Shown here: piece after piece, positions 31,037-41,825 of the stretch
Position numbering within the stretch: position 1 is the first letter of the stretch
Layout of the letters: every line of letters begins with the position of its first letter
From: Arenibacter arenosicollis
GTDB taxonomy: Bacteria; Bacteroidota; Bacteroidia; Flavobacteriales; Flavobacteriaceae
DNA: 64,000 nt
Direction of reading: 5' to 3'
Assembly (NCBI RefSeq): GCF_014397245.1
Contig: NZ_JACLHY010000001.1
Location: 434,001 to 498,000, forward strand
Translations under genes and position numbers: made by a program
The notes under the pieces: generated by a model
What the model saw: only the letters and a program-made list of their open reading frames with translations
The model's database searches: none
What the model was told of the DNA's origin: nothing

Positions 31037-31079
31037 CAAAACTAGCGCTGCTATATGGATTATAAAATGACAATGGTCA
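31037..31079 (-). promoter_or_regulatory. FNR-like site 1 with -7 box (L,D-transpeptidase)
   Basis: Palindrome TGACAATGGTCA at 31068-31079. On the minus strand, 23 nt downstream, lies TAGTTTTG (31037-31044), a perfect TAnnTTTG box. Start predicted near 31033, 24 nt before the ATG. The site centre falls at about -41, the class II activator position of FNR/CRP proteins. Confidence 0.65.
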
Positions 31080-31124
31080 CTCCACCACATGACATTCCTC
31101 ATTTTAAGCCCCTAGCTTTCATGC

Positions 31125-31132
31125 TATCTTTG
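31125..31132 (+). promoter_or_regulatory. -7 box of the Mla operon
   Basis: TATCTTTG matches TAnnTTTG; transcription would start near 31136, about 28 nt before the mlaE ATG at 31164. FNR-like site 1 would be at about -63 for this promoter, so control of Mla by it is possible but weaker than for the divergent L,D-transpeptidase. Confidence 0.5.
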
Positions 31133-31163
31133 ATGAAATAGGTCCTTACAAAAGGATTTGGGT

Positions 31164-31946
31164 ATGGATAATAGATCAACGCTATTTAAAGGGGTAAAGG
31201 AATTTTTTGTAGAGATCGGTGATCTCTCATATTTTACTGCCCGATTTTTTAAGGAGGTATTAAAACCTCCTTTCGAATTTAAGGAGCTACTACGCCAATG
31301 CTATCAAATGGGGAACAGGTCCCTAGTTTTGGTAACTGTAACGGGATTTATCATTGGACTGGTACTCACCCTGCAATCCCGACCCACTCTGATTCAATTC
31401 GGTGCCGTTTCCTGGATGCCGAATATGGTCGGTATCTCTATTGTAAGGGAAATAGGACCCGTAATTACTGCCCTCATATGCGCGGGGCGAATTGCATCGG
31501 GGATAGGAGCCGAATTAGGTTCCATGAGGGTAACCGAGCAAATTGATGCCATGGAAGTCTCGGGGACCAACCCTTTTAAATATTTGGTAGTTACACGGAT
31601 AATGGCCACCACTCTAATGCTGCCAATTTTAGTTGTTTACGGAGATTTGGTTGCGCTATACGGATCGGCTCTAGTAGAGAATTTAAAGGGAGATGTTTCC
31701 TTTCAACTCTACTTTAATACGGTTTTTGATGCTTTGTCCTATGCCGACCTGGTACCGGCCACCATAAAATCGGTCTTTTTTGGATTTACAATAGGTTTGG
31801 TAGGGTGCTATAAAGGGTATTATTGTAAAAAAGGCACTGCAGGGGTTGGTATCGCTGCAAATACAGCTGTGGTCATGGCATCCTTACTTTTATTTGTGGT
31901 AGATTTTATAGCGGTATTTATTTCCGATATATTTTATGAACTTTAA
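31164..31946 (+). CDS. mlaE: MlaE family lipid ABC transporter permease
   Basis: About 260 residues from the ATG at 31164. MlaE fold with five predicted membrane segments; conserved EIGPVITALICAGRIASGIGAELGSM and TEQIDAMEVSGTNPFKYLV. Part of the inner-membrane complex that moves phospholipids between inner and outer membrane. Its stop overlaps the start of mlaF, followed by mlaD: a three-gene Mla operon as usual in Bacteroidota. Confidence 0.93.
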   Translation: MDNRSTLFKGVKEFFVEIGDLSYFTARFFKEVLKPPFEFKELLRQCYQMGNRSLVLVTVTGFIIGLVLTLQSRPTLIQFGAVSWMPNMVGISIVREIGPVITALICAGRIASGIGAELGSMRVTEQIDAMEVSGTNPFKYLVVTRIMATTLMLPILVVYGDLVALYGSALVENLKGDVSFQLYFNTVFDALSYADLVPATIKSVFFGFTIGLVGCYKGYYCKKGTAGVGIAANTAVVMASLLLFVVDFIAVFISDIFYEL

Positions 31947-32730
31947 TATGACACACCCAGACAAAATAACACCTTCAGTAGCAGCTACAAGCCTTGGAAA
32001 AGCGGTTATAGAGATCAAAGATCTTTATAAAAGTTTTGGCGACAATCACGTATTAAACGGATTTAATATGACCCTATTGGAAGGTGAAAATCTTGTGGTC
32101 ATGGGGAAGTCGGGCTCTGGTAAATCAGTAATGATCAAATGCCTCGTAGGGTTGGTAAAACCGGATAGTGGAACGGTTAAAGTATTGGGCAAGGAAATAA
32201 ACTCTTTGGAGCAGCAAACTTTGGACGAATTGCGTTCGGATATTGGATTTCTTTTCCAGGGAAGTGCACTATACGATTCAATGACGGTCCGGGAAAATTT
32301 AGAATTTCCTATGCGGAGGCACAAAGAAAAACTGGGAGTGGTTTCGGATACCGAACCCTTGGTTCGTGAAGCGCTGGAAAATGTTGGCTTGGCACATACT
32401 ATGGATTTAATGCCCGTAGAACTATCAGGAGGAATGAAAAGAAGAGTAGCCTTGGCGCGCACACTGATCCTAAAACCAAAGGTAATCCTATATGATGAGC
32501 CAACAAGCGGTTTAGACCCCATTACCTCCAAGGAGATTATAGAATTAATGCGTTCCATACAAAAGAAATACGGTACTTCCTCCCTAATAATTACCCATGA
32601 CGTGGATTGCGCCAGAGTAATATCGGAGCGGATGATCTTATTGGTAGATGGTATTAATTACGCAGAAGGCACCTATTCACAATTGTCGCAATCTACCGAT
32701 TCTAAAGTAGAAGCATTTTTTAAAAAATAA
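31936..32730 (+). CDS. mlaF: MlaF family ABC transporter ATP-binding protein
   Basis: 264 residues. Walker A GKSGSGKSVMIKCL, Q-loop FLFQGSALYDSMTV, signature LSGGMKRRVALARTL, Walker B VILYDEPTSGLDPITS, switch His in IITHDVD. Drives the MlaE permease. The start overlaps mlaE by 11 bp, suggesting coupling. An alternative downstream ATG at 31948 (MTHPDK) is possible. Confidence 0.94.
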   Translation: MNFNMTHPDKITPSVAATSLGKAVIEIKDLYKSFGDNHVLNGFNMTLLEGENLVVMGKSGSGKSVMIKCLVGLVKPDSGTVKVLGKEINSLEQQTLDELRSDIGFLFQGSALYDSMTVRENLEFPMRRHKEKLGVVSDTEPLVREALENVGLAHTMDLMPVELSGGMKRRVALARTLILKPKVILYDEPTSGLDPITSKEIIELMRSIQKKYGTSSLIITHDVDCARVISERMILLVDGINYAEGTYSQLSQSTDSKVEAFFKK

Positions 32731-32734
32731 GAAT

Positions 32735-33724
32735 ATGGCAAAGACAAAACTAGAAAATTTGAAATTAGGGATATTTGTTGTCCTCGGCACAGCCTTGCTT
32801 GTGGTAGCGGCCTATTTAATAGGGAACAGACAGAATATGTTTAGTAAAACCATTCCTATAAGCGCCATATTCAAGAATGCGAACGGACTTCAAAATGGGA
32901 ATAATGTGCGCTTTTCAGGTATAAATGTAGGCACGGTAAATAAAATAGAAATGATAAACGATACCACCATTCGCGTGCGTATGATTATTGAGGAAAAAAT
33001 GCAAAACCACATTAAGAAAGATGCTGTAGCCACCATTGGTTCCGATGGTCTTGTGGGCAGTATGCTTATCAATATAGTACCTGGGGAAGGGAAAACAAAC
33101 CATATTGGCCCAGGGGATGAATTGCAATCCTATAGCAGGGTTGCTACCCAAGATATGCTAAACACCCTAAACCTAACCAATGAAAATGCAGCCTTGTTGA
33201 CACAAGACCTGTTAAAAGTAACACGATCCTTGACACAGGGCGAAGGAACCTTTGGCATGTTGCTGAACGATTCCCAAATGGCCTCGGAACTTCACCAAAC
33301 CATTACCAACCTGAAACTTAGCAGTAGAGAAGCCAATATAATGATTGGGGAAATGAACAAAATAGTAAAACAGTTCGATTTAGACAATAGTATTGCAGGA
33401 GTTCTCTTAAAGGACTCTATTTCCGGGGATAAAATGAGAAATGTAATTTCCCATTTGGAAAATTCCAGTATCGAAATCGAAAAAATGTCCACGGATTTAA
33501 ATTCTGTAATCGGGGATATAAAAAAAGGGAAGGGAGCCATTAACTATTTGTCATCGGACACCTTACTGGTAAAGCAACTGGAAACTACCATGGAAAATGT
33601 TACGGAAGGGATTAAAAATTTCAATGAAATTACGGAAGCTTTAAAACATAATTTCTTAACTCGGCGATATTTCAAAAAGAAAGAAAAAGAGCAAAAAAAG
33701 GAGCAGGAGAAAATCAATGAATAA
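32735..33724 (+). CDS. mlaD: MlaD family MCE-domain protein
   Basis: 329 residues. N-terminal transmembrane anchor (about 10-28, LGIFVVLGTALLVVAAYLIG), then an MCE domain (about 35-115: VRFSGINVGTVNKIEM, GSDGLVGSMLINI) that forms the periplasmic lipid tunnel, then long helices ending in a highly charged Lys/Glu tail. Third gene of the Mla operon. Confidence 0.93.
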   Translation: MAKTKLENLKLGIFVVLGTALLVVAAYLIGNRQNMFSKTIPISAIFKNANGLQNGNNVRFSGINVGTVNKIEMINDTTIRVRMIIEEKMQNHIKKDAVATIGSDGLVGSMLINIVPGEGKTNHIGPGDELQSYSRVATQDMLNTLNLTNENAALLTQDLLKVTRSLTQGEGTFGMLLNDSQMASELHQTITNLKLSSREANIMIGEMNKIVKQFDLDNSIAGVLLKDSISGDKMRNVISHLENSSIEIEKMSTDLNSVIGDIKKGKGAINYLSSDTLLVKQLETTMENVTEGIKNFNEITEALKHNFLTRRYFKKKEKEQKKEQEKINE

Positions 33725-33773
33725 ATTCTTATACCCAACTATTTATTAGTTCTACGTACAGAATTTAATGCCA

Positions 33774-34994
33774 TTATTGCACCTTCTCCAATTCTATAAA
33801 GGTAATTTCGGGGCGCATGCCCAAGCGGCCAGGAAATCCCATCCACCCCAATCCTCGGCTTACATAAAGATACTGCTGGCCCAACCGGTATAATCCCGCC
33901 CAGTGTTCGTATTTGTATTTTATTGGACTCCATTTTTTATTTCTGATATTGATCCCGGCCTGCATACCATGTGTATGACCAGAAAGCGTAAGGGCTATAT
34001 TGGTTTGCTCCACTACTTCCCCACGCCAATGCGAAGGATCGTGGGACAATAAAATTTTAAACGCTATTCCGTTTACATTCAGCAGGGATTTTTTAAGGTC
34101 CCCATATTGTTTAAAGGGTGGATTGCCCCAATTCTCTACACCTACGATTGCAATTTCCTCACCATTGTTTACAATACTTTCGGCTTCATTGAGCAAAAGC
34201 TTAAAACCTATTTTGGCCTGAAAATCTTTGATATCATCAAAATTGCTTTTCCTTTCTTCCTCAGATTCCCATTTGCTATAATCCCCGTAATCATGATTCC
34301 CAAGCACAGAATATTTGCCCTGTTTGGCGCTAAGCTGCTTTAAAACATTCTCCCAACCATTCAATTCCCATGCATAGTTGTTCACCAAATCGCCCGTAAA
34401 AAAAATAAAATCGGGATTTAATTGGTTTATAGTTTTAATGGCACGGTCCAGTATATGGTAGCGATAGTTAAAACTGCCCAAATGAAGATCGGATATTTGA
34501 ACTATTCGCAAGCCGCTAAAATTTTTTGGGAGCAATTCGGATTTTATCTTAACATGGTGAACCTTAAATCTATATACCGCTCTAAAAACGGCATAAACGA
34601 TAACGAAGAAAGGCAAAAACCCAAAAAAAACACCGACCACAGGAATGATAAGTAAGGATTTCTCGCCCGAAATTAAAAAGTTGGAGAAATAGAGTATTGA
34701 GATAACCACAACAAATATTAATTTGGGAATAAAGGAGGAAACTGTTAAACCATATAAGGATGAAATAAGCAGTTGCTTTCTTTTTGGGGCTATACTTTCC
34801 AATCTGATTTTTAACACCAAAATAGAAATAATAAGTCCTATGGTAAAAAACCAAAATGCGATGAATATACTACTCCTTATAACGGAAGAAGTAATAGGTT
34901 CCATTATAGATTTAAGCCAGAAGAAAGCTAAGGTATCTATTAGTAAAATGGCCAAACATAATAGGACTATGGCAAAAAAAGTGTAAGATCGCAT
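33774..34994 (-). CDS. Membrane metallophosphoesterase
   Basis: 406 residues. About four N-terminal membrane segments (residues 5-140) and a calcineurin-type domain: VQISDLHLGSF, TGDLVNN, LGNHDYGDY, LSHDPSHW and LSGHTHGMQAG. Related to YaeI/YkuE-type phosphodiesterases of membrane lipids or UDP-sugars. Begins 14 bp after the CDP-alcohol phosphotransferase stop, third gene of a minus-strand operon. Confidence 0.88.
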   Translation of the reverse strand: MRSYTFFAIVLLCLAILLIDTLAFFWLKSIMEPITSSVIRSSIFIAFWFFTIGLIISILVLKIRLESIAPKRKQLLISSLYGLTVSSFIPKLIFVVVISILYFSNFLISGEKSLLIIPVVGVFFGFLPFFVIVYAVFRAVYRFKVHHVKIKSELLPKNFSGLRIVQISDLHLGSFNYRYHILDRAIKTINQLNPDFIFFTGDLVNNYAWELNGWENVLKQLSAKQGKYSVLGNHDYGDYSKWESEEERKSNFDDIKDFQAKIGFKLLLNEAESIVNNGEEIAIVGVENWGNPPFKQYGDLKKSLLNVNGIAFKILLSHDPSHWRGEVVEQTNIALTLSGHTHGMQAGINIRNKKWSPIKYKYEHWAGLYRLGQQYLYVSRGLGWMGFPGRLGMRPEITFIELEKVQ

Positions 34995-35008
34995 TAATAA
35001 AGGTTTTG

Positions 35009-35605
35009 CTATTGGGAATTCGTATTCTTTGGCCTTCTTTTATCACTGAGGGCCCAGAAATAGCCTTTTACATCTTCTACCCACTGATCATACATAAAGA
35101 TAAGTGTAATTTCCTCAATAGTTTCCAAAACGCCTAAAACAATCATTACATAGAACAACCAATAAACTGGTCCAAAAAACAACAACCATAAAATAAAAAT
35201 CCCCTGGGTAATAGCCGAAATTTTGGCCAAATAGGTATGAAATGCAGTTGCCTTTCCATATTTAACAAAGGCAATAAACATTTGAACCAGATATGGGACA
35301 AATGCTAAAAGTATTAGAAGATAATTTGCTTTGATAAAAGTATTTTCAAAAAAGACTAGACCGATCAACCCAATAATCAAGGTTATTTGATCTCCAAGAG
35401 AATCGAGTTGTGAGCCCCTGGCACTTGTAATTTTTAACCTCCTTGCCAAAAAACCATCAATTGCATCCGTACTATAACTTATAAGTAACATCCAACTAAA
35501 CCATTCACGTTCCCCAACCCAAATTAGGCCAAGTAATATGGGAACGGCCATAATCCGATAGAAAGAAAACCAATCGGCGATATTGAAATATTTAAAATTA
35601 TACAT
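35009..35605 (-). CDS. CDP-alcohol phosphatidyltransferase family protein
   Basis: 198 residues, several membrane segments. Signature DG-x2-AR-x8-G-x3-D-x3-D is present in DAIDGFLARRLKITSARG and GSQLDSLGD (about residues 47-70). Transfers a phosphoalcohol from a CDP-lipid, making a phospholipid head group such as phosphatidylglycerol-phosphate, or a related lipid. Between the flavodoxin-like gene and the metallophosphoesterase in one operon; lipid synthesis plus phosphatase is a sensible pairing. Confidence 0.9.
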   Translation of the reverse strand: MYNFKYFNIADWFSFYRIMAVPILLGLIWVGEREWFSWMLLISYSTDAIDGFLARRLKITSARGSQLDSLGDQITLIIGLIGLVFFENTFIKANYLLILLAFVPYLVQMFIAFVKYGKATAFHTYLAKISAITQGIFILWLLFFGPVYWLFYVMIVLGVLETIEEITLIFMYDQWVEDVKGYFWALSDKRRPKNTNSQ

Positions 35606-35644
35606 ATTTATTAATTAGCATTCCGGAATCCGACTTTAAAATAA

Positions 35645-36166
35645 CTACTGCGATGTATACAATTTTATTAACGGATTTAATTCATTAATGATTTTACCCA
35701 CATACAAGGGAGTTTCATCCAAAATGGATTCCCCCGTAATTGCGTCTATTCCTTCCATTTTGTAAGTCCCTTCACCCGAGGTTGTCAGGACAACCATTTT
35801 ACCCCTATCGTCTACGGTTCTGTCCATGAACGATTTTATCGATGCCGGTGGTTTCCACATCTCCCAGGTATGGATTATTAACAGGGCATTGTAATTGGTA
35901 GGATTCACATCTGCCAATGCCGAAACATCTATTATTTTAATATAAATAGACTCCGATTTATAATACTCCACAATAGCGGTAGTAATTGTATTTTTAAATG
36001 TACTGCCCTGTGTTGCGATAAGTAATTTGGAATTCTCCATGGGAGAATTTACCTCATACTCCTCGGCAATGTCCATGGCATATTCATTTTGATACCAAAG
36101 CATAAACAGCAAGAACACCACTACTATGGATAAAAATATGAGCGAAAACTTTTTTACCTTATTCAT
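35645..36166 (-). CDS. Membrane-anchored flavodoxin-like protein
   Basis: 173 residues. N-terminal membrane segment (about 7-25) followed by a flavodoxin-like alpha/beta domain: KLLIATQGSTFKNTITTAIV resembles the phosphate loop, then NYNALLIIHTWEMWKPPASI and MVVLTTSGEGTY. May bind FMN and carry electrons at the membrane, but motifs are diverged and it could be a non-flavin relative. First gene of the operon with the CDP-alcohol phosphotransferase; preceded by FNR-like site 2. Confidence 0.6.
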   Translation of the reverse strand: MNKVKKFSLIFLSIVVVFLLFMLWYQNEYAMDIAEEYEVNSPMENSKLLIATQGSTFKNTITTAIVEYYKSESIYIKIIDVSALADVNPTNYNALLIIHTWEMWKPPASIKSFMDRTVDDRGKMVVLTTSGEGTYKMEGIDAITGESILDETPLYVGKIINELNPLIKLYTSQ

Positions 36167-36288
36167 AATAATTCTTTAATTCAAATTCTACCCCTAATAT
36201 TAGTTGTGATATATATCGTATCATAATCCGCTGCACACTCAATTAATTCGTGAACTTGGTTAAGATGCTTTCCTAAAACTTTAAATCG

Positions 36289-36331
36289 TAAAGCTATTCC
36301 TTAACTGTACACCACCCTATGACCTTTGTCA
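36289..36331 (-). promoter_or_regulatory. FNR-like site 2 with -7 box (flavodoxin-like operon)
   Basis: TGACCTTTGTCA at 36320-36331; 23 nt further on the minus strand lies TAGCTTTA (36289-36296, 7 of 8 to TAnnTTTG, with A for the last G). Predicted start about 36285, leaving a 119-nt leader before the ATG at 36166. Confidence 0.5.
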
Positions 36332-36507
36332 GTTATAGTTGCCCATGTAGTAATAGGAGCTGTATAACACAAGGATATATTTTAGAAAAATAAAAGACAT
36401 TAGACCTTGTAATAATCGGAAATTTCCAAATAATTATCAGTAATAAAGGAGCATAGCAATGGTCAGGCACCTCTTATCAAAAAATTGAATATCAGCCATA
36501 TAGGATA

Positions 36508-36550
36508 TGATTAATATCATTTGATATTATTGGAATAGTGACTTTCTTTA
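36508..36550 (+). promoter_or_regulatory. FNR-like site 3 with -7 box (OmpA lipoprotein)
   Basis: TGATTAATATCA at 36508-36519, overlapped by a second inverted repeat AATATCATTTGATATT. The box 23 nt downstream is weak, TTTCTTTA (36543-36550), so the promoter may depend on an activator. The ATG is 33 bp further on. Confidence 0.5.
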
Positions 36551-36582
36551 TTGGATAGGAATCATCCAAATAACGTATAAAA

Positions 36583-37449
36583 ATGAAACCGCTACATCTT
36601 TACGTCCTAGCACTTACCCTTTTTACTTCTTGTGTAAGCCAAAAAAAATATACTGCTATGCAAGATCGGGCCGTAAATTGCGAAAATGAATTAAATACAA
36701 CTAAGAATCAAAATAATTTGCTTGAAGCCGGATTGGCCAATGAGAAAAACCGATCTAAATCCTTGGAGCAACAAATGGAATACTTCAAAAGTACCAATAC
36801 GGACCTGTTGGCCAGACTTTCCGATCTTTCAGTTGTGAGCAAATCTGGAGCAGAAAGCATTAAAAAATCATTGGAAGCCCTAAACGAACAGAATAAATAC
36901 ATAAAAGATCTTACAAGTTCCATACAGCGAAAAGACTCCATTAATTTAGTATTGGTGATGAACTTAAAAAGATCCTTGGACAATTTTGAAGATGAGGATA
37001 TTAACATTGAAGTGAAGAAGGGAGTGGTGTATGTATCTATTTCAGACAAGATGCTTTTCCGTTCTGGTAGTTACAACATAAGTAACAGGGCGGAGGAAGT
37101 TATTGGTAAAATTGCCAAGATCATCAATGACCATAAGGAACTGGATATTTTGGTGGAGGGGCATACAGACAATGTTCCCATTTCTACCGAATGCATGGTC
37201 GATAACTGGGATTTAAGTGTAAAAAGGGCAACGTCCATTGTACGATTAATGCAAACTAAATTTGCTGTTCAACCCCTAAGAATGACTGCTGGAGGCCGTT
37301 CTGAATACCTTCCAAAAACTACCAATGCAACAACGGAAGGTAGAGCCATAAACCGCAGGACCGAGATAATTATTTTACCCAAACTAGATCAATTCTTTGA
37401 ATTACTAGAACCGCCAACCACAAATATCGAGGGCCAGGGAAAAGGATAG
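36583..37449 (+). CDS. OmpA family lipoprotein
   Basis: 288 residues. Signal peptide and lipobox LFTSC, a coiled-coil region (about 30-125, rich in Glu/Asn/Lys), then an OmpA/MotB peptidoglycan-binding domain with LVEGHTDNVPI and RATSIVRLM and the terminal NRRTEII. Anchors the outer membrane to peptidoglycan. FNR-like site 3 lies in its promoter. Confidence 0.88.
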   Translation: MKPLHLYVLALTLFTSCVSQKKYTAMQDRAVNCENELNTTKNQNNLLEAGLANEKNRSKSLEQQMEYFKSTNTDLLARLSDLSVVSKSGAESIKKSLEALNEQNKYIKDLTSSIQRKDSINLVLVMNLKRSLDNFEDEDINIEVKKGVVYVSISDKMLFRSGSYNISNRAEEVIGKIAKIINDHKELDILVEGHTDNVPISTECMVDNWDLSVKRATSIVRLMQTKFAVQPLRMTAGGRSEYLPKTTNATTEGRAINRRTEIIILPKLDQFFELLEPPTTNIEGQGKG

Positions 37450-37523
37450 GAGACATAAAAGGAAACAGGAAATTAAGCAATCCTATTTTCTTTTTTAAAA
37501 ATCGAGAAAAAAACACACCCAAC

Positions 37524-37566
37524 TGATATATATCATTCCGAATCCAATATGATAATTATATATTGG
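37524..37566 (+). promoter_or_regulatory. FNR-like site 4 with -7 box (non-coding transcript)
   Basis: TGATATATATCA at 37524-37535; exactly 23 nt downstream is TATATTGG (37559-37566), close to TAnnTTTG. It faces a region with no gene but with a strong terminator 200 nt on. Confidence 0.55.
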
Positions 37567-37569
37567 TAT

Positions 37570-37797
37570 TATTATAAAGCAATAGTTCTTTGATAGATAT
37601 AAAAATAAAGTTTCTAAGCAGTAATGCCTTAGCGACTATACTCCGGAGCCCATGTAACTTCTTGAGCCTAATCGCCCAAACACCCTGTTCGGATGTTGCA
37701 ATTGCAACTCGCCGTCCAAGACTTGGATTAGTGTAAAAGAGCTACTTGCCCCGGACATAAAGGATTGGGATATTTAGATATCCCAATCCTTTTTATT
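37570..37797 (+). ncRNA. Candidate FNR-like-controlled small RNA
   Basis: Predicted transcript of about 225 nt from the site-4 promoter to a perfect 13-bp terminator stem (37761-37773 with 37778-37790, loop TTAG) and a T tract. No open frame longer than a dozen codons; contains other structure, e.g. the palindrome GTTGCAATTGCAAC. Its position recalls enterobacterial FnrS, but there is no sequence evidence of relation. It could also be an attenuated leader of the DUF302 gene starting 158 bp downstream. Confidence 0.5.
37761..37797 (+). terminator. Strong Rho-independent terminator
   Basis: 13-bp perfect stem with tetraloop TTAG, then TTTTATT. Ends the candidate small RNA, well before the DUF302 gene. 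Confidence 0.85.
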
Positions 37798-37954
37798 ATA
37801 TAGAGTCCCTGTTATATAAAAGGTCCACTTTACCTTATTTATGGCATAGACCGAATTAAATGGATTAAAAAAATTGAATATTATTTACCAAGTTTGAAAC
37901 CGGAGGCTTTTGCTTCCTATTCTTGTTTTTTAAAAACCCGATAAAAATATTATT

Positions 37955-38347
37955 ATGGAGTATTATTTTAATAAAACAATTGGAAATATACCTTTCGACA
38001 AGGCAGTGGAAAAAACAAAATTGGCCCTACAGGAAGAGGGCTTTGGCGTGCTAACGGAAATAGATATGAAAGCTACCCTAAAGAAGAAATTGGACGTAGA
38101 TTTCTATAATTATATGGTCCTGGGCGCATGTAACGCTCCCTTTGCCCACAAAGCACTACAGGCCGAAGATAAAATTGGTACCATGTTGCCCTGTAATGTA
38201 ATTGTTATGGAAAAGGAACCAGGACTTGTGGAAATAGCAGCGGTAAACCCCATGGCATCCATGCAGGCGGTTATAAATTTGGATTTAATGAATATAGCGG
38301 ACGAAGTGGGCGAGAAATTAAAGAAGGTGGTAGAAAAGATACACTAA
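37955..38347 (+). CDS. DUF302 domain protein
   Basis: 130 residues, single DUF302 domain: YYFNKTIGNIPFDKAVEKTKLAL, FGVLTEIDMKATL, YMVLGACNAPFAHKAL, GTMLPCNVIVME. Short alpha/beta proteins of unknown role, often near redox or sulfur genes. Follows the candidate small RNA on the same strand; no FNR-like site directly before it. Confidence 0.9.
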   Translation: MEYYFNKTIGNIPFDKAVEKTKLALQEEGFGVLTEIDMKATLKKKLDVDFYNYMVLGACNAPFAHKALQAEDKIGTMLPCNVIVMEKEPGLVEIAAVNPMASMQAVINLDLMNIADEVGEKLKKVVEKIH

Positions 38348-38350
38348 ATT

Positions 38351-38806
38351 CTAAGATCCATATTTCTTAATAATGGCCATTTGACCAGAATGATAGGTGG
38401 TGTGGGAAACTATTCTTCCAAATGCCTCCGCCTTTGTCTTTGTTCCAAATTCTTTGGTTGTAATAGTTGTTTCCCAATCCTTATCTTCCTGCTTTTCTAT
38501 TATATCCTTTATCATTAAAAATGAATGTTGTACGTATTCCAATAATTCCTCCAAATTGGTCCACTCGCCCGTATCCTTTTGAGCAATAACCGTTTTTGCA
38601 ATTACCTTTATATCCTGCGCTCCAAATACATTTTTGGCAAAAAGTAGTTCAACATCGCCTATATGTCGAATAAGAAAGCCGATACTATTGGGAGCCGGTA
38701 TTAATTTTTTGCTTAAATCGTCTTCCTTTAAATTGGACAATTGATTTGAAAACCGGGTTCTGGCTTCTTCCCACAACTCGATAAACAACTGTGTTTTTGA
38801 TTTCAT
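38351..38806 (-). CDS. DinB family protein
   Basis: 151 residues, four-helix DinB/YfiT bundle with the metal histidines in LIRHIGDVELLF and SHTTYHSGQMAIIKK. Members bind Ni/Zn and may act as thiol S-transferases (bacillithiol-type in Firmicutes); role in Bacteroidota not established. Convergent with DUF302 (3 bp between stops). Confidence 0.85.
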   Translation of the reverse strand: MKSKTQLFIELWEEARTRFSNQLSNLKEDDLSKKLIPAPNSIGFLIRHIGDVELLFAKNVFGAQDIKVIAKTVIAQKDTGEWTNLEELLEYVQHSFLMIKDIIEKQEDKDWETTITTKEFGTKTKAEAFGRIVSHTTYHSGQMAIIKKYGS

Positions 38807-38981
38807 GAAATATTAAATTAAAATATTTATCTTAAGGGATAAGGGTAGGTTGTGGAAATAATTTAGGCCATATGCACCATACTTTTTCAAACTCTTCTGG
38901 AATACTTTTTTAACAAATAGGTTATTGAATAAATACTGGCATAAATAAAAAGAGCTAGGTATAAGGTCATAATATTGGTTA

Positions 38982-39434
38982 TTAGAATATTAAATTATTA
39001 AAAATCATTCCTTTAAGATTTTTTGGAAGGCTATCCCGGATGTCGGCCATTTCTCCTTGGGAAACATATTTTCGTAAATAAATAAAGGTAGTGTTTACAT
39101 ATTCTTCCGCCACTTCATCACTGTATTCAAAATCGTTTACTGCAGCTGGTCCGTCAAATTGTCTAACCAGGTCCAAGAATTCGGGCATATTTTTAATTTT
39201 GGGTTTTTCTTGTTTTAAGGACCAACCAGTTACATAGACCCCTTTTAAAAACATAGGTAACTGCGCAATAAATTGTAGTGATTCCGCAACCGGAATAATT
39301 TCCCTTAAGGCATGGAGTATGGAAGTGAGAACCCGTCCGGCTTTGTCGGTATCCTTGCCCATATCCATTTGTTTAGTGTAATCTTTTAAGAAGGTATGTC
39401 CCTCTGTTGCATACTGATTAAAATTGAGTGCCAT
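38982..39434 (-). CDS. DUF2267 domain protein
   Basis: 150 residues. Helical pattern with GRVLTSILHALREIIPVAESLQFIAQLPMFLKGVYVTGW (seen in parts) matches DUF2267, a family of unknown function often found with universal stress proteins. Directly preceded by FNR-like site 5 with the same promoter spacing as the other members of the proposed regulon. Confidence 0.8.
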   Translation of the reverse strand: MALNFNQYATEGHTFLKDYTKQMDMGKDTDKAGRVLTSILHALREIIPVAESLQFIAQLPMFLKGVYVTGWSLKQEKPKIKNMPEFLDLVRQFDGPAAVNDFEYSDEVAEEYVNTTFIYLRKYVSQGEMADIRDSLPKNLKGMIFNNLIF

Positions 39435-39458
39435 GATTGCTTAATTTTGGGATATATA

Positions 39459-39501
39459 CAAAAATGGCTTTATCTTTTGGTTTGTAAAATGATCTTGGTC
39501 A
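39459..39501 (-). promoter_or_regulatory. FNR-like site 5 with -7 box (DUF2267)
   Basis: TGATCTTGGTCA at 39490-39501 (reads TGACCAAGATCA on the minus strand); 23 nt on lies CATTTTTG (39459-39466, 7 of 8 to the constrained bases). Start near 39455, 21 nt before the ATG. Confidence 0.6.
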
Positions 39502-39642
39502 TATTGGTAATATTGATAACCTAAGTTAAATTAAGTTTTTACTGGAAATGTCCCATCGGGCGACCAAAAATTTTCCCTTTCCTTAAAATAAGAGGCACAA
39601 TTAATGTACGGAGAATCAAAAAAAGATAGTCGAATCCCTGCC

Positions 39643-40341
39643 TTAGGCAATATTAAGGGCAATATCTATCATGTCCTGAAAAGTGGTTTCCCTTTCTATG
39701 GAATTTGATTTTTGACCCGTCACCAAAGAATCCGAAATAGTCAATATCGTTAGGGCCTTAATATTAAACTTGGCGGCAATGGTATATAATCCGGCCGCCT
39801 CCATTTCTACACAAAGGACCCCGAATTTTGCCCACAATTTATAGGAATTTGGATCATCCTCATAAAATTCATCCGAAGAAAGAACATTACCTGCCTTAAT
39901 GGCAATACCCTTTTCCTTTGCGTAAAGTGCAGCCTTAAGGAGCAAGTCAAAATCAGCGGTTGGGGCATAGTCGGCGTTAATAAATCTTGAATTATTAATT
40001 CCCGAGGTGGTGGAAGCTGCCATCGCTAATACGATATCACGTATTTTAACCTCTTTTTGATAAGAACCGGCAGTACCTACGCGAATTAGATTTTTCACCC
40101 CATAATCATTAATTAACTCCTGATAATAGATCAGAGCAGAAGGTATGCCCATACCGCTTCCCTGAACCGAAATACGTTTGCCCTTATAGGTTCCTGTATA
40201 TCCCAACATACCACGAACCTGATTATAACAGACAGGATTTTCAAGAAAGCTATTCGCTATCCATTTGGCCCTTAATGGATCCCCCGGCAATAATACAGTT
40301 TCTGCGATTTCACCCTTTTTCGCTTCAATATGTACGCTCAT
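39643..40341 (-). CDS. deoD: Purine-nucleoside phosphorylase
   Basis: Phosphorolysis of purine (deoxy)nucleosides. About 232 residues from the ATG at 40341 ([22 protein letters not shown]), preferred to the ATG at 40365 because it matches the DeoD N-terminus. Seen: [37 protein letters not shown], and the catalytic Asp in TISDSLVTG. Second gene after deoC, so ribose-1-P/deoxyribose-1-P salvage. Confidence 0.92.
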
Positions 40342-40389
40342 ATTTACTTCAATTTTTATATCCAATCCAATTCCAGAGGAAAGCCAATT

Positions 40390-41034
40390 TTACTGGTCTA
40401 TTACTATGGCAACTCCAGAAGATGTCCCTATTCGGGAAACTCCTAAATCTATATATCGTTTGGCTGTGGCAGCATCTTTAATTCCCCCAGATGCCTTTAT
40501 TTTGATTTTGTTCTTTATCACTGACTTCATCAGAACCACATCTTCAAGAGTTGCCCCTCCGGGACCAAAACCGGTTGAAGTCTTTACAAAATCAGCCTTG
40601 GCATTAACTGCCAATGTACAGGCCGTCCTTTTTTCCTCCTCGGTTAAATAACAGGTTTCCAAAATAACTTTCAATACATCGCTACCCAGCACCTTTTTCA
40701 CTTGGGTTATTTCATCTTCTACAACTGAAAATTTACCAGATTTAAGCCATCCAATATTTAGGACCATATCCAGCTCATCGGCTCCTTGTTCCATATAATC
40801 CTCTGCTTCCTGTACTTTCGCCCTAGTGGACATAGCCCCTAAGGGAAACCCTACTACTGCAACCAGCTTTACCTTAGTGCCTCTTAACAATTCTTTTGCA
40901 AGGTAGAGGTAACAACCGTTGATACATACGGCATAAAACTTATAATTTAAAGCTTCGGCGCAAAGAAGCCTAATATCTTGCTCTGTTGCCGTAGGTTTTA
41001 ATAGTGTATGGTCTATAAAATTTTCAAATTGCAT
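40390..41034 (-). CDS. deoC: Deoxyribose-phosphate aldolase
   Basis: Cleaves 2-deoxyribose-5-phosphate to glyceraldehyde-3-phosphate and acetaldehyde. 214 residues. Schiff-base lysine in ADFVKTSTGFGPGGATLEDV; second lysine region KIKASGGIKDAATA. Acts after deoD in nucleoside catabolism. FNR-like site 6 with a perfect TAnnTTTG box precedes it, which would tie nucleoside use to oxygen or redox state. Confidence 0.92.
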   Translation of the reverse strand: MQFENFIDHTLLKPTATEQDIRLLCAEALNYKFYAVCINGCYLYLAKELLRGTKVKLVAVVGFPLGAMSTRAKVQEAEDYMEQGADELDMVLNIGWLKSGKFSVVEDEITQVKKVLGSDVLKVILETCYLTEEEKRTACTLAVNAKADFVKTSTGFGPGGATLEDVVLMKSVIKNKIKIKASGGIKDAATAKRYIDLGVSRIGTSSGVAIVIDQ

Positions 41035-41089
41035 ATGGAAAAGTATATCATTTTGGTAATTCTGTGAATGGATAACGACCCTATTTTAC

Positions 41090-41132
41090 CAAAAGTAAAC
41101 TTCTTTTCCATGTTATTTTATGACAAGAATCA
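41090..41132 (-). promoter_or_regulatory. FNR-like site 6 with -7 box (deoC-deoD)
   Basis: TGACAAGAATCA at 41121-41132; on the minus strand 23 nt on lies TACTTTTG (41090-41097), a perfect TAnnTTTG. Predicted start near 41086, about 52 nt before the deoC ATG. Confidence 0.65.
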
Positions 41133-41309
41133 TCAAAAGGAAAGCCTGTAATAACTTCCAATTATCACCAATTCTTCTAGAAATGTAAAATTTGGCAATG
41201 ATTGCCGTTGTCAACAATGACTCACTCGAAATTTTTTGTAAACGCCTTTGGGTATGGCTACGGGAAAGTTGCCACGTTAGTGTTACAAAAAAACATTTTT
41301 TAGGAATAA

Positions 41310-41579
41310 TTATGCAAGGGTTGTTTCACCTCTGCCTTCATTCTGCATATTTGGACTTAACGTGGAAAGAAATTTGAAATGTCTGATGGGGTAACCAATT
41401 CTCCAAAGTTCTTGTTTTACCTGTTCCAGTGCAATTGGACTGTAGTAAAAGAAAATAAGTCTTCCGGTATCAACCTCCAGATTTATTATTCTAATATCCA
41501 TAATGCGACTCAGGTTGCGAAGAATTACTCTTTTATCACTTTCAGAGATTAGGTTTCCTATTTTTGCTATGGCTTTCAT
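41310..41579 (-). CDS. Small HMA-like (ferredoxin-fold) protein without CxxC
   Basis: 89 residues from the ATG at 41579. The frame stays open to a TTG at 41669, but FNR-like site 7 and its -7 box lie inside that upper part, so the lower ATG is favoured. Pattern ISESDKRVILRNLSRI, IINLEVDTGRLIFFYYSP, LEQVKQELWRIGYPI is that of a heavy-metal-associated domain; the metal-binding CxxC is absent. May be a degenerate chaperone domain or a sensor. Function unknown. Confidence 0.6.
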   Translation of the reverse strand: MKAIAKIGNLISESDKRVILRNLSRIMDIRIINLEVDTGRLIFFYYSPIALEQVKQELWRIGYPIRHFKFLSTLSPNMQNEGRGETTLA

Positions 41580-41631
41580 CAGGTCTTTGTTAACAACACT
41601 TATCAATTCAATTATTTGTTTACAACGATCA

Positions 41632-41674
41632 ACAATATACGCTGGCAAATTGGTATCTGAAATGACCAAGATCA
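41632..41674 (-). promoter_or_regulatory. FNR-like site 7 with -7 box (HMA-like)
   Basis: TGACCAAGATCA at 41663-41674; 23 nt on, on the minus strand, lies TATATTGT (41632-41639), near TAnnTTTG and like the TATATTGG box of site 4. Start predicted near 41628. Confidence 0.5.
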
Positions 41675-41782
41675 GTTAACATAAATTTAGGGCCAAGGAT
41701 TCCCATAGGTATTCCTCACATAAGTTAGGATTTTTGAAAAGCGATTTTTTACCATGTAAAGAATGAAAGGATATAATGGGTA

Positions 41783-41825
41783 TGACCAATATCATTGTTA
41801 TTATCAACAATAGCTTATAGTTTTA
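41783..41825 (+). promoter_or_regulatory. FNR-like site 8 with -7 box (universal stress protein)
   Basis: TGACCAATATCA at 41783-41794; 23 nt on lies TAGTTTTA (41818-41825). Start predicted near 41829, 16 nt before the ATG. Site centre at about -41. Confidence 0.6.

Follow-up and report, generated by a model that had tools for sequence, protein, structure and literature searches.

The 64-kb stretch of DNA analysed here, referred to as the window (G000:C1:434001-498000, 38% GC), belongs to the 5.4-Mb genome of Arenibacter arenosicollis (G000) and raises the question why eight palindromes of the form TGAY-N4-RTCA stand at one fixed distance from promoter-like boxes upstream of genes as diverse as those for an L,D-transpeptidase, DeoC and a universal stress protein (Usp), and which regulator reads them. 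We are largely confident that the eight sites represent class II operators of a genome-wide regulon for survival at low oxygen or limited energy, most likely read by two types of Crp/Fnr-superfamily proteins, one Fnr-like and one in which a receiver domain is fused to a Crp-type regulator (REC-Crp). These functional assignments are predictions from comparisons of genomes and protein families.

All eight palindromes listed in a preliminary description of the window were found at their coordinates, and a box resembling the -7 element lies exactly 23 nt from the site edge (N23) in eight out of eight cases. The designation of these boxes as -7-type needs qualification, as only four sites (31068, 36320, 41121 and 41783) have a strict TAnnTTTR box and the remaining boxes are degenerate, yet recurrent in congeners. 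The window contains 11 TGAY-N4-RTCA palindromes, compared with 3.2 expected from dinucleotide shuffles, and 11 were reached in none of 100 shuffles; the three further palindromes (18097, 29629 and 57394) lack a good -7-like box at this spacing. When the boxes of the eight sites were scored against TAnnTTTG at spacings of 5-49 nt, the score sum was 40 at N23 and at most 27 at any other spacing. Among 3000 random sets of eight intergenic anchors, evaluated at spacings of 10-40 nt, none reached eight of eight (maximum seven) and none reached a score sum of 40 (maximum 32). A cluster of this kind might have arisen by chance from AT-rich palindromes in a genome of this base composition, where imperfect -7 boxes are numerous. 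However, the counts from shuffles, the reversed-pattern control, the spacing spectra and the random anchors were all far below those observed, and the spacing spectra on their own already refute this explanation, which we rejected as having a negligible probability.

The 23-nt spacing, pointed out in the preliminary description for the window, is in strong excess throughout the genome and in relatives when compared with reversed-pattern and other-spacing controls. The strict pattern TGAYNNNNRTCA-N23-TANNTTTR occurs 34 times in the A. arenosicollis genome, whereas the reversed-pattern control gave no match. With the gap left free between 10 and 40 nt and TANNTTTG as box, 40 pairs were found (control 9), with 18 at N23 and no more than three at any other spacing. 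Strict sites are clustered, with 17 in C2:31-123 kb, four in the window and four in C76:33-51 kb. Fifty site-box pairs of this genome were examined in fetched stretches at a box score of at least 4.5 out of 6; 46 of them lie outside any called open reading frame (ORF), and in 27 a gene starts 15-50 nt after the predicted transcription start site. According to the accessible part of PMC9723704, the -7 box of sigma-A promoters in Flavobacterium psychrophilum occupies positions -12 to -5. Combined with the N23 spacing, this position places the site at -47 to -36 with its centre at -41.5, supporting the class II position of a Crp/Fnr-dependent promoter that had been proposed in the preliminary description; the cbb3, hemN and Usp targets described below also speak for it. 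A dimeric Crp/Fnr-superfamily protein would thus bind MTGAY-N4-RTCAK at -41.5, beside a sigma-A promoter that retains its -7 element, and would activate rather than repress transcription.

A fixed spacing to the -7 box could also arise if the palindrome were part of a promoter class recognized by an alternative sigma factor instead of a regulator site. However, the element is palindromic, would be located at -47 to -36, stands beside a sigma-A-type TAnnTTTG box and is clustered with Crp/Fnr genes. Moreover, one palindrome can serve two divergent boxes, and GTGAC..GTCAC and TTGAT..GTCAA cores share the spacing, as expected for sites of Crp paralogues. The sigma-factor-only explanation was rejected on grounds of palindromy, clustering and these variant cores, and we regard it as very improbable.

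The logo of the operator is (A/C)TGAY-N4-RTCA(T/G), i.e. MTGAY-N4-RTCAK. In 149 Flavobacteriaceae genomes, one per genus, MTGAY..RTCAK was found 1890 times at N23 (at least once in 134 genomes), compared with 137 occurrences (82 genomes) of the equally degenerate KTGAY..RTCAM. The canonical FNR site is TTGAT-N4-ATCAA, and this difference in counts means that it is largely excluded; a T at position -1 was present in none of the 34 site-box units in the fetched stretches of the A. arenosicollis genome. Minority cores recur at the same N23 spacing, namely GTGAC..GTCAC and TTGATATAGGTCAA, which suggests Crp paralogues that differ in the base they accept beside TGA.

Two further arrangements of palindrome and box were observed. 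A spacing of 24 nt (N24) is a minor form with examples in A. arenosicollis at C1:403272, C15:3654 and C34:113799. G016 and G015 contain sequences like these, and the N24 form may be a tolerated variant or belong to another factor. The palindrome L010:3055 (G000 C2:113055) has an N23 box leftwards and a TATCTTTG box at N12 rightwards, just before the kinase and REC-Crp genes. The N12 form is also present in G016 and G015 and as a variant in G003, and it may represent a repressing, autoregulatory site.

Orthologous promoters keep the sites. Their absence from such promoters, or a 23-nt spacing no more frequent than in controls, had been named in the preliminary description as grounds for refutation, and neither was observed. 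Ten congener stretches were chosen by their DeoC gene, leaving out seven of the 18 genus genomes that had no DeoC match at 1e-40, and among the orthologues found the site was retained in front of YkuD (5/5), the 173-aa protein gene (6/6), OmpA (5/5), DUF2267 (6/6), DeoC (10/10) and Usp (10/10), with lower conservation at the DUF302 promoter (6/8). For a footprint, seven promoters were compared with ten loci each; 38 of these 70 comparisons had at least 58 ungapped identities over 97 positions, and after removal of seven pairs from the near-identical G009, 31 pairs remained. In these pairs, conservation was 100% for TGAY, TCA and TA and 96% for TTTG, compared with 47% upstream, 76% in the spacer and 65% downstream. 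Across the phylum, strict TANNTTTG units were present in 169 of 392 genomes. All 46 sampled Flavobacteriaceae, including A. arenosicollis, have 1-20 units each (controls 0-2), and no unit is present in most genomes outside the class. The distant family f61 outside the class (G308, G343, G417 and G421) has 25-30 strict sites per genome, with 0 in the control. Spacing lists were complete for eight of 40 relatives: N23 accounted for 54 of 101 pairs in four congeners, where N24 was over-represented with 11, and for 12 of 44 pairs in four relatives from the same order. At the 80 named loci encoding Fnr-like proteins (the best 80 of 580 matches, the nearest from Arenibacter hampyeongensis at 98%), 190 of 215 site-box pairs had the N23 spacing and any other spacing was seen at most four times.

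The genes behind the sites outside the window bear on the purpose of the regulon. Respiratory targets comprise CcoS-CcoNO-CcoQ-CcoP (CcoQ below the Pfam cut-off), an ATPase divergent from the Fnr-like gene that is probably of CcoI type, judged by its domains and neighbours, and HemN (TIGR00538 over cut-off). Eight Usp targets were confirmed by Pfam, seven outside the window in addition to the one inside; four more candidates, of Usp length, stand behind sites. Further targets are PfkB, Hsp20, a calcium-type ATPase, patatin, DnaJ/MerR_2, cytochrome c and a pyridoxamine-oxidase-like gene followed by PPDK. This set fits a response to low oxygen and energy limitation, and the sites probably mark a large gene set that is switched on at low oxygen in Flavobacteriaceae. 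The cbb3, hemN and Usp targets thus support the low-oxygen regulon suggested in the preliminary description, in which control by oxygen itself is a prediction. In F. psychrophilum, cbb3 is strongly induced under oxygen limitation, as stated in the accessible part of PMC9723704. For CRP/FNR homologues in metagenome-assembled genomes of Flavobacteriales and Ignavibacteria, MalR-like carbon sensing was proposed with the help of a Bacteroides motif (PMC8510549, accessible part). These homologues belong to the same superfamily and phylum, but they were assigned a carbon-related role and the operator described here is unreported in the accessible part of that paper. We rejected a carbon-sensing function for the present sites, as the cbb3 and hemN targets suit oxygen better.

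The absence of Crp/Fnr genes from the window, already stated in the preliminary description, was borne out: all six HTH_Crp_2 matches of the genome, four over the cut-off and two below, fall elsewhere, and three of the four over the cut-off sit inside site clusters. The Fnr-like protein has 228 aa, is encoded on C76 beside cbb3 oxidase genes and contains PF00027 (cNMP_binding), PF13545 (HTH_Crp_2) and PF00325 over cut-off. Two REC-cNMP_binding-HTH_Crp_2 (REC-Crp) proteins are encoded on C2, in an island rich in Usp genes, each adjoining a PAS histidine kinase. All three regulators have the recognition helix ATE(S/T)-x-IR, in which we take the Glu and Arg to correspond to E209 and R213 of E. 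coli FNR. Four cysteines of the Fnr-like protein (C4, C7, C53 and C106) were invariant in 30 of 30 sequences and then, as CX2CX45CX52C, in 80 of 80. In an alignment with solved FNR chains (PDB; presumably from E. coli and Aliivibrio fischeri), C4, C7 and C106 are matched by cysteines and C53 by an alanine. In FNR, the cluster cysteines are arranged as CX2CX5C ... C, and the aligned FNR cysteines are cluster ligands. The Fnr-like protein is, judged by these alignments and domains, a variant of FNR, and not FNR by the NCBIfam cut-off, and its four invariant cysteines probably hold an oxygen-sensitive iron-sulphur cluster. An operator is present within 300 nt upstream of the Fnr-like gene in 73 of the 80 named loci. 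Full-length REC-Crp proteins occur in the own class only, among the matches listed.

The REC-Crp branch would receive its signal from the adjacent kinases, in a chain from a FixL-like kinase to a receiver fused to a FixK-like activator. Of the 29 REC-Crp loci that could be placed (out of 30), 24 have a kinase box immediately before the REC-Crp gene, and none has one downstream or on the opposite strand. The best solved match for the PAS domain of the A. arenosicollis kinase HK503 is FixL (E=1.6e-13), but an ordinary PAS domain of a relative (L066) matches about equally well (6e-14), and for this reason we do not claim a heme for HK503. His and Arg are found at the FixL ligand and distal positions, roles that we assume for the aligned residues, in HK503 and in all six kinases aligned. 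The PAS domain of the partner kinase in G247 is clearly of FixL type (5e-31). A strict heme-PAS pattern was detected in five of 29 loci, many of which have incomplete upstream stretches. When 13 kinase sequences were inspected by eye, His was present at the ligand position in all 13 and the FixL-type 'IIG' motif in five. The second kinase of A. arenosicollis in this island, HK917 (L009:4471-7224 = G000 C2:94471-97224, minus strand), has an N23 operator of its own upstream and might provide a blue-light input to the low-oxygen regulon.

Which of the two sensor types reads the operator was addressed by comparing genomes that differ in their regulators. In a sample of 54 genomes of the order (46 Flavobacteriaceae and eight others), a close Fnr-like protein (E below 1e-60) is present in 39, with a mean of 8.7 sites, and absent from 15, with a mean of 5.5. 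In five Flavobacteriaceae, matches to the Fnr-like protein are weak (1e-19 to 1e-23) and REC-Crp is full-length; these genomes keep the N23 spacing in 64 of 128 pairs, with seven at the next spacing. The opposite case is provided by twelve Flavobacteriaceae that have an Fnr-like protein and no REC-Crp match at 1e-25, and in which 1-10 sites are retained. In the Fnr-less genomes G271 and G168, sites line an island of kinase, REC-Crp and Usp genes. A second stretch of G271 has sites with Usp-like, DUF2267 and DeoC genes, where a good box faces the Usp-like gene, the DUF2267 box is degenerate and no box faces DeoC. The CcoNO gene of G389 has a palindrome with a full box ahead of it, with a single small ORF in between. 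Among 51 genomes of the class outside the order, regulators were assigned by hand, REC-Crp at E-values under 1e-60 and the Fnr-like protein at E-values under 1e-38 combined with a short open frame, and site number showed a modest association with their presence (Mann-Whitney p 0.008, with nine genomes in the absent group and phylogeny uncorrected). Two unlike kinds of sensor apparently land on one operator, and we consider it somewhat more probable than not that REC-Crp reads it.

Alternatively, the Fnr-like iron-sulphur protein might be the sole reader, with REC-Crp acting on a distinct, though similar, site and those of Fnr-less genomes belonging to other small Crp proteins that respond to NO or redox state. 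In favour of this view, the Fnr-like gene neighbours cbb3 genes and is itself preceded by an operator, and Fnr-less genomes contain additional Crp genes. Family f61 points in the same direction, having an Fnr-like match (about 1e-53) along with its 25-30 sites, and best REC-Crp matches of 6e-33 to 7e-31, compared with 3.6e-62 or better for the full-length matches listed; a second Crp match adjoins the Fnr-like one in the three f61 genomes with places listed. However, the N23 sites of the Fnr-less G271 and G168 cluster at the kinase/REC-Crp/Usp island, and the recognition helices of the Fnr-like and REC-Crp proteins are nearly identical, which makes a sole Fnr-like reader unlikely. It is doubtful, though conceivable, that the regulon is split, with the stress part (Usp island and window) read mainly by REC-Crp and the respiratory part alone left to the Fnr-like protein, the two being distinguished by bases beside the core, in the N4 spacer and at position +3. 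The logo from Fnr loci, with A at +4 (0.88), T at +7 (0.88) and A-rich upstream sequence, differs from that of the Fnr-less islands, which has no preference at +4 or +7 and favours C at +3 (0.74). These differences are inflated by shared ancestry, since each logo was built from loci of a single type in numerous related species, and the set of sites in the A. arenosicollis genome was taken as a whole, across all targets.

Several observations weigh against the interpretation that the Fnr-like and REC-Crp proteins jointly control a low-oxygen regulon from these sites. In the Fnr-less genomes REC-Crp is one possible reader among others, as further Crp genes are present, one of which (in G389) has its own site. 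Nine of the 51 class genomes have neither regulator and still average 1.2 sites; the mean is 2.7 for the 31 genomes in which REC-Crp is the only one of the two. An operator was found within 300 nt upstream of REC-Crp in only two of the 21 loci placed (of 30). Half-site covariation among the variable bases was looked for and none was found. The third cluster cysteine of FNR is absent from the Fnr-like protein, where N13 is aligned, and the protein scores 106.1 bits against the NCBIfam Fnr cut-off of 228 (NF008365). HK917, which lies beside the first REC-Crp of A. arenosicollis, has no heme-type PAS motif and instead has a LOV domain with GKNCRFLQ, which we take to be the flavin motif. Among the promoters, the leader falls outside 15-50 nt in 23 of the 50 site-box pairs, and four pairs have no gene within 400 nt on the respective strand. 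Pta-AckA was dropped as a target because it is the divergent neighbour across a Usp palindrome and the box on its side is poor. Apart from these points, the 198-aa Crp protein of G389 (L184:3387-5724), which has an N23 site, is a possible NO or oxygen regulator; the small proteins beside it are, by eye, presumably hemerythrin-like.

The proposed system shares features with several known ones. With FNR of E. coli and A. fischeri, it has in common the cNMP-binding and HTH_Crp domains, the Glu and Arg of the helix, a CX2C motif with a later Cys, the predicted -41.5 position and hemN and terminal oxidase targets. It differs from FNR in the invariant C53, the missing third cluster cysteine, the score below the NCBIfam cut-off, the operator MTGAY..RTCAK without the outer T/A of TTGAT..ATCAA and the Bacteroidota -7 promoter. 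The term FNR-like used in the preliminary description needs qualification in view of the excluded outer T/A, the absent third cysteine and the apparent use of the site by a second regulator type, REC-Crp. In Rhizobiales and Caulobacterales, FixLJ-FixK operates alongside the iron-sulphur protein FnrN, and redundancy in the control of cbb3 and hemN is discussed in the accessible part of PMC4999443. The likeness to FixLJ-FixK with FnrN/FnrL extends to a PAS kinase, a response regulator and a Crp/Fnr activator lacking cluster cysteines, with predicted control of cbb3 and hemN, beside a probable iron-sulphur regulator. In contrast to FixLJ-FixK, the receiver is fused to cNMP_binding and HTH_Crp_2 domains in both A. 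arenosicollis proteins, which would act on the final promoters; a FixJ-type HTH is lacking and the regulon is rich in Usp genes. ANR and DNR of Pseudomonas are Crp/Fnr paralogues with near-identical boxes and hemN, oxidase and Usp/anaerobic-survival targets. They resemble the present case in that several paralogues share boxes and hemN/oxidase targets, and differ in operator, promoter type and the REC-Crp branch.

As a tentative model, to which we give slightly less than even weight, the hypoxia response of Bacteroidota could be a collapsed FixL-FixJ-FixK cascade, in which a kinase with a heme-PAS domain (or, in one A. arenosicollis kinase, a LOV domain sensing blue light) phosphorylates a receiver-Crp/Fnr fusion that competes or cooperates with an Fnr-like iron-sulphur protein of new ligand arrangement on the shared MTGAY-N4-RTCAK operator at -41.5. 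If this were true, oxygen and light would feed into the same promoters. Among titles and abstract openings, with subscription papers mostly outside the search, we found no literature describing this operator or oxygen regulation by REC-Crp in Bacteroidota, and an earlier description is possible. The base-resolved operator with its spacing rule should predict activator-dependent, probably low-oxygen promoters across Flavobacteriaceae (134 of 149 genomes) and further within the class. Few promoters of this type have been mapped well in the phylum, and the rule allows a plausible regulation to be assigned to the genes for cbb3 oxidase, HemN and universal stress proteins. It also becomes testable whether an unusual iron-sulphur Fnr or a receiver-fused Crp reads the operator.

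Within the window, the first operator, TGACCATTGTCA (31068..31079, minus strand), stands N23 before the box TAGTTTTG (31037-31044) and at the same position in the congener orthologues; its target is the L,D-transpeptidase gene (YkuD domain, PF03734; 30056..31009, minus), the ATG of which lies about 22 nt past the predicted start site. The operator TGACAAAGGTCA (36320..36331, minus) with the box TAGCTTTA (36289-36296) precedes a putative operon (33774..36166, minus; predicted from spacing and strand) for a 173-aa protein, a CDP-alcohol phosphatidyltransferase and a calcineurin-like phosphoesterase. The 173-aa protein, which had been labelled flavodoxin-like, has no Pfam match. On the plus strand, TGATTAATATCA (36508..36519) with the box TTTCTTTA (36543-36550) precedes the gene for an OmpA-family protein (PF00691; 36583..37449, plus), and all congener orthologues found have a similar box.

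The weakest of the eight operators, TGATATATATCA (37524..37535, plus), is followed by the box TATATTGG (37559-37566), and the box score was at least 4.5 in five of eight orthologues. A non-coding transcript had been proposed behind this promoter. The gene for a DUF302 protein (PF03625; 37955..38347, plus) begins about 385 nt downstream, which makes a long leader and a separate non-coding transcript equally likely. The intervening region (37567-37954) has no Rfam match at the gathering threshold, and Rfam matches in the window are tRNA only, so no known RNA accounts for this leader. The operator TGACCAAGATCA (39490..39501, minus) with the box CATTTTTG (39459-39466) lies upstream of the DUF2267 gene (PF10025; 38982..39434, minus), and CATTTTTG itself recurs in all six congener orthologues found.

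Upstream of the putative deoC-deoD operon (39643..41034, minus; predicted from spacing and strand), which comprises deoC (40390-41034, PF01791) and deoD (39643-40365, PF01048, above the cut-off of NCBIfam DeoD), the operator TGATTCTTGTCA (41121..41132, minus) is paired with the box TACTTTTG (41090-41097), which is complete in nine of the ten congeners. The operator TGATCTTGGTCA (41663..41674, minus) with the box TATATTGT (41632-41639) has a palindrome at the matching place in six of six congeners (L167-L172) with degenerate N23 boxes, as read from the alignment display, five of the six being under the identity threshold of the conservation count. This operator overlaps the TTG start of a listed 119-aa ORF (41310..41669, minus), and the gene, if real, must therefore start further in; its small product has a weak copper-chaperone/HMA-like match (NCBIfam CsoZ, E=0.0024, below cut-off) and no Pfam match. 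Finally, TGACCAATATCA (41783..41794, plus) with the box TAGTTTTA (41818-41825) precedes the Usp gene (PF00582; 41845..42687, plus), the ATG of which is located about 15 nt past the predicted start site.

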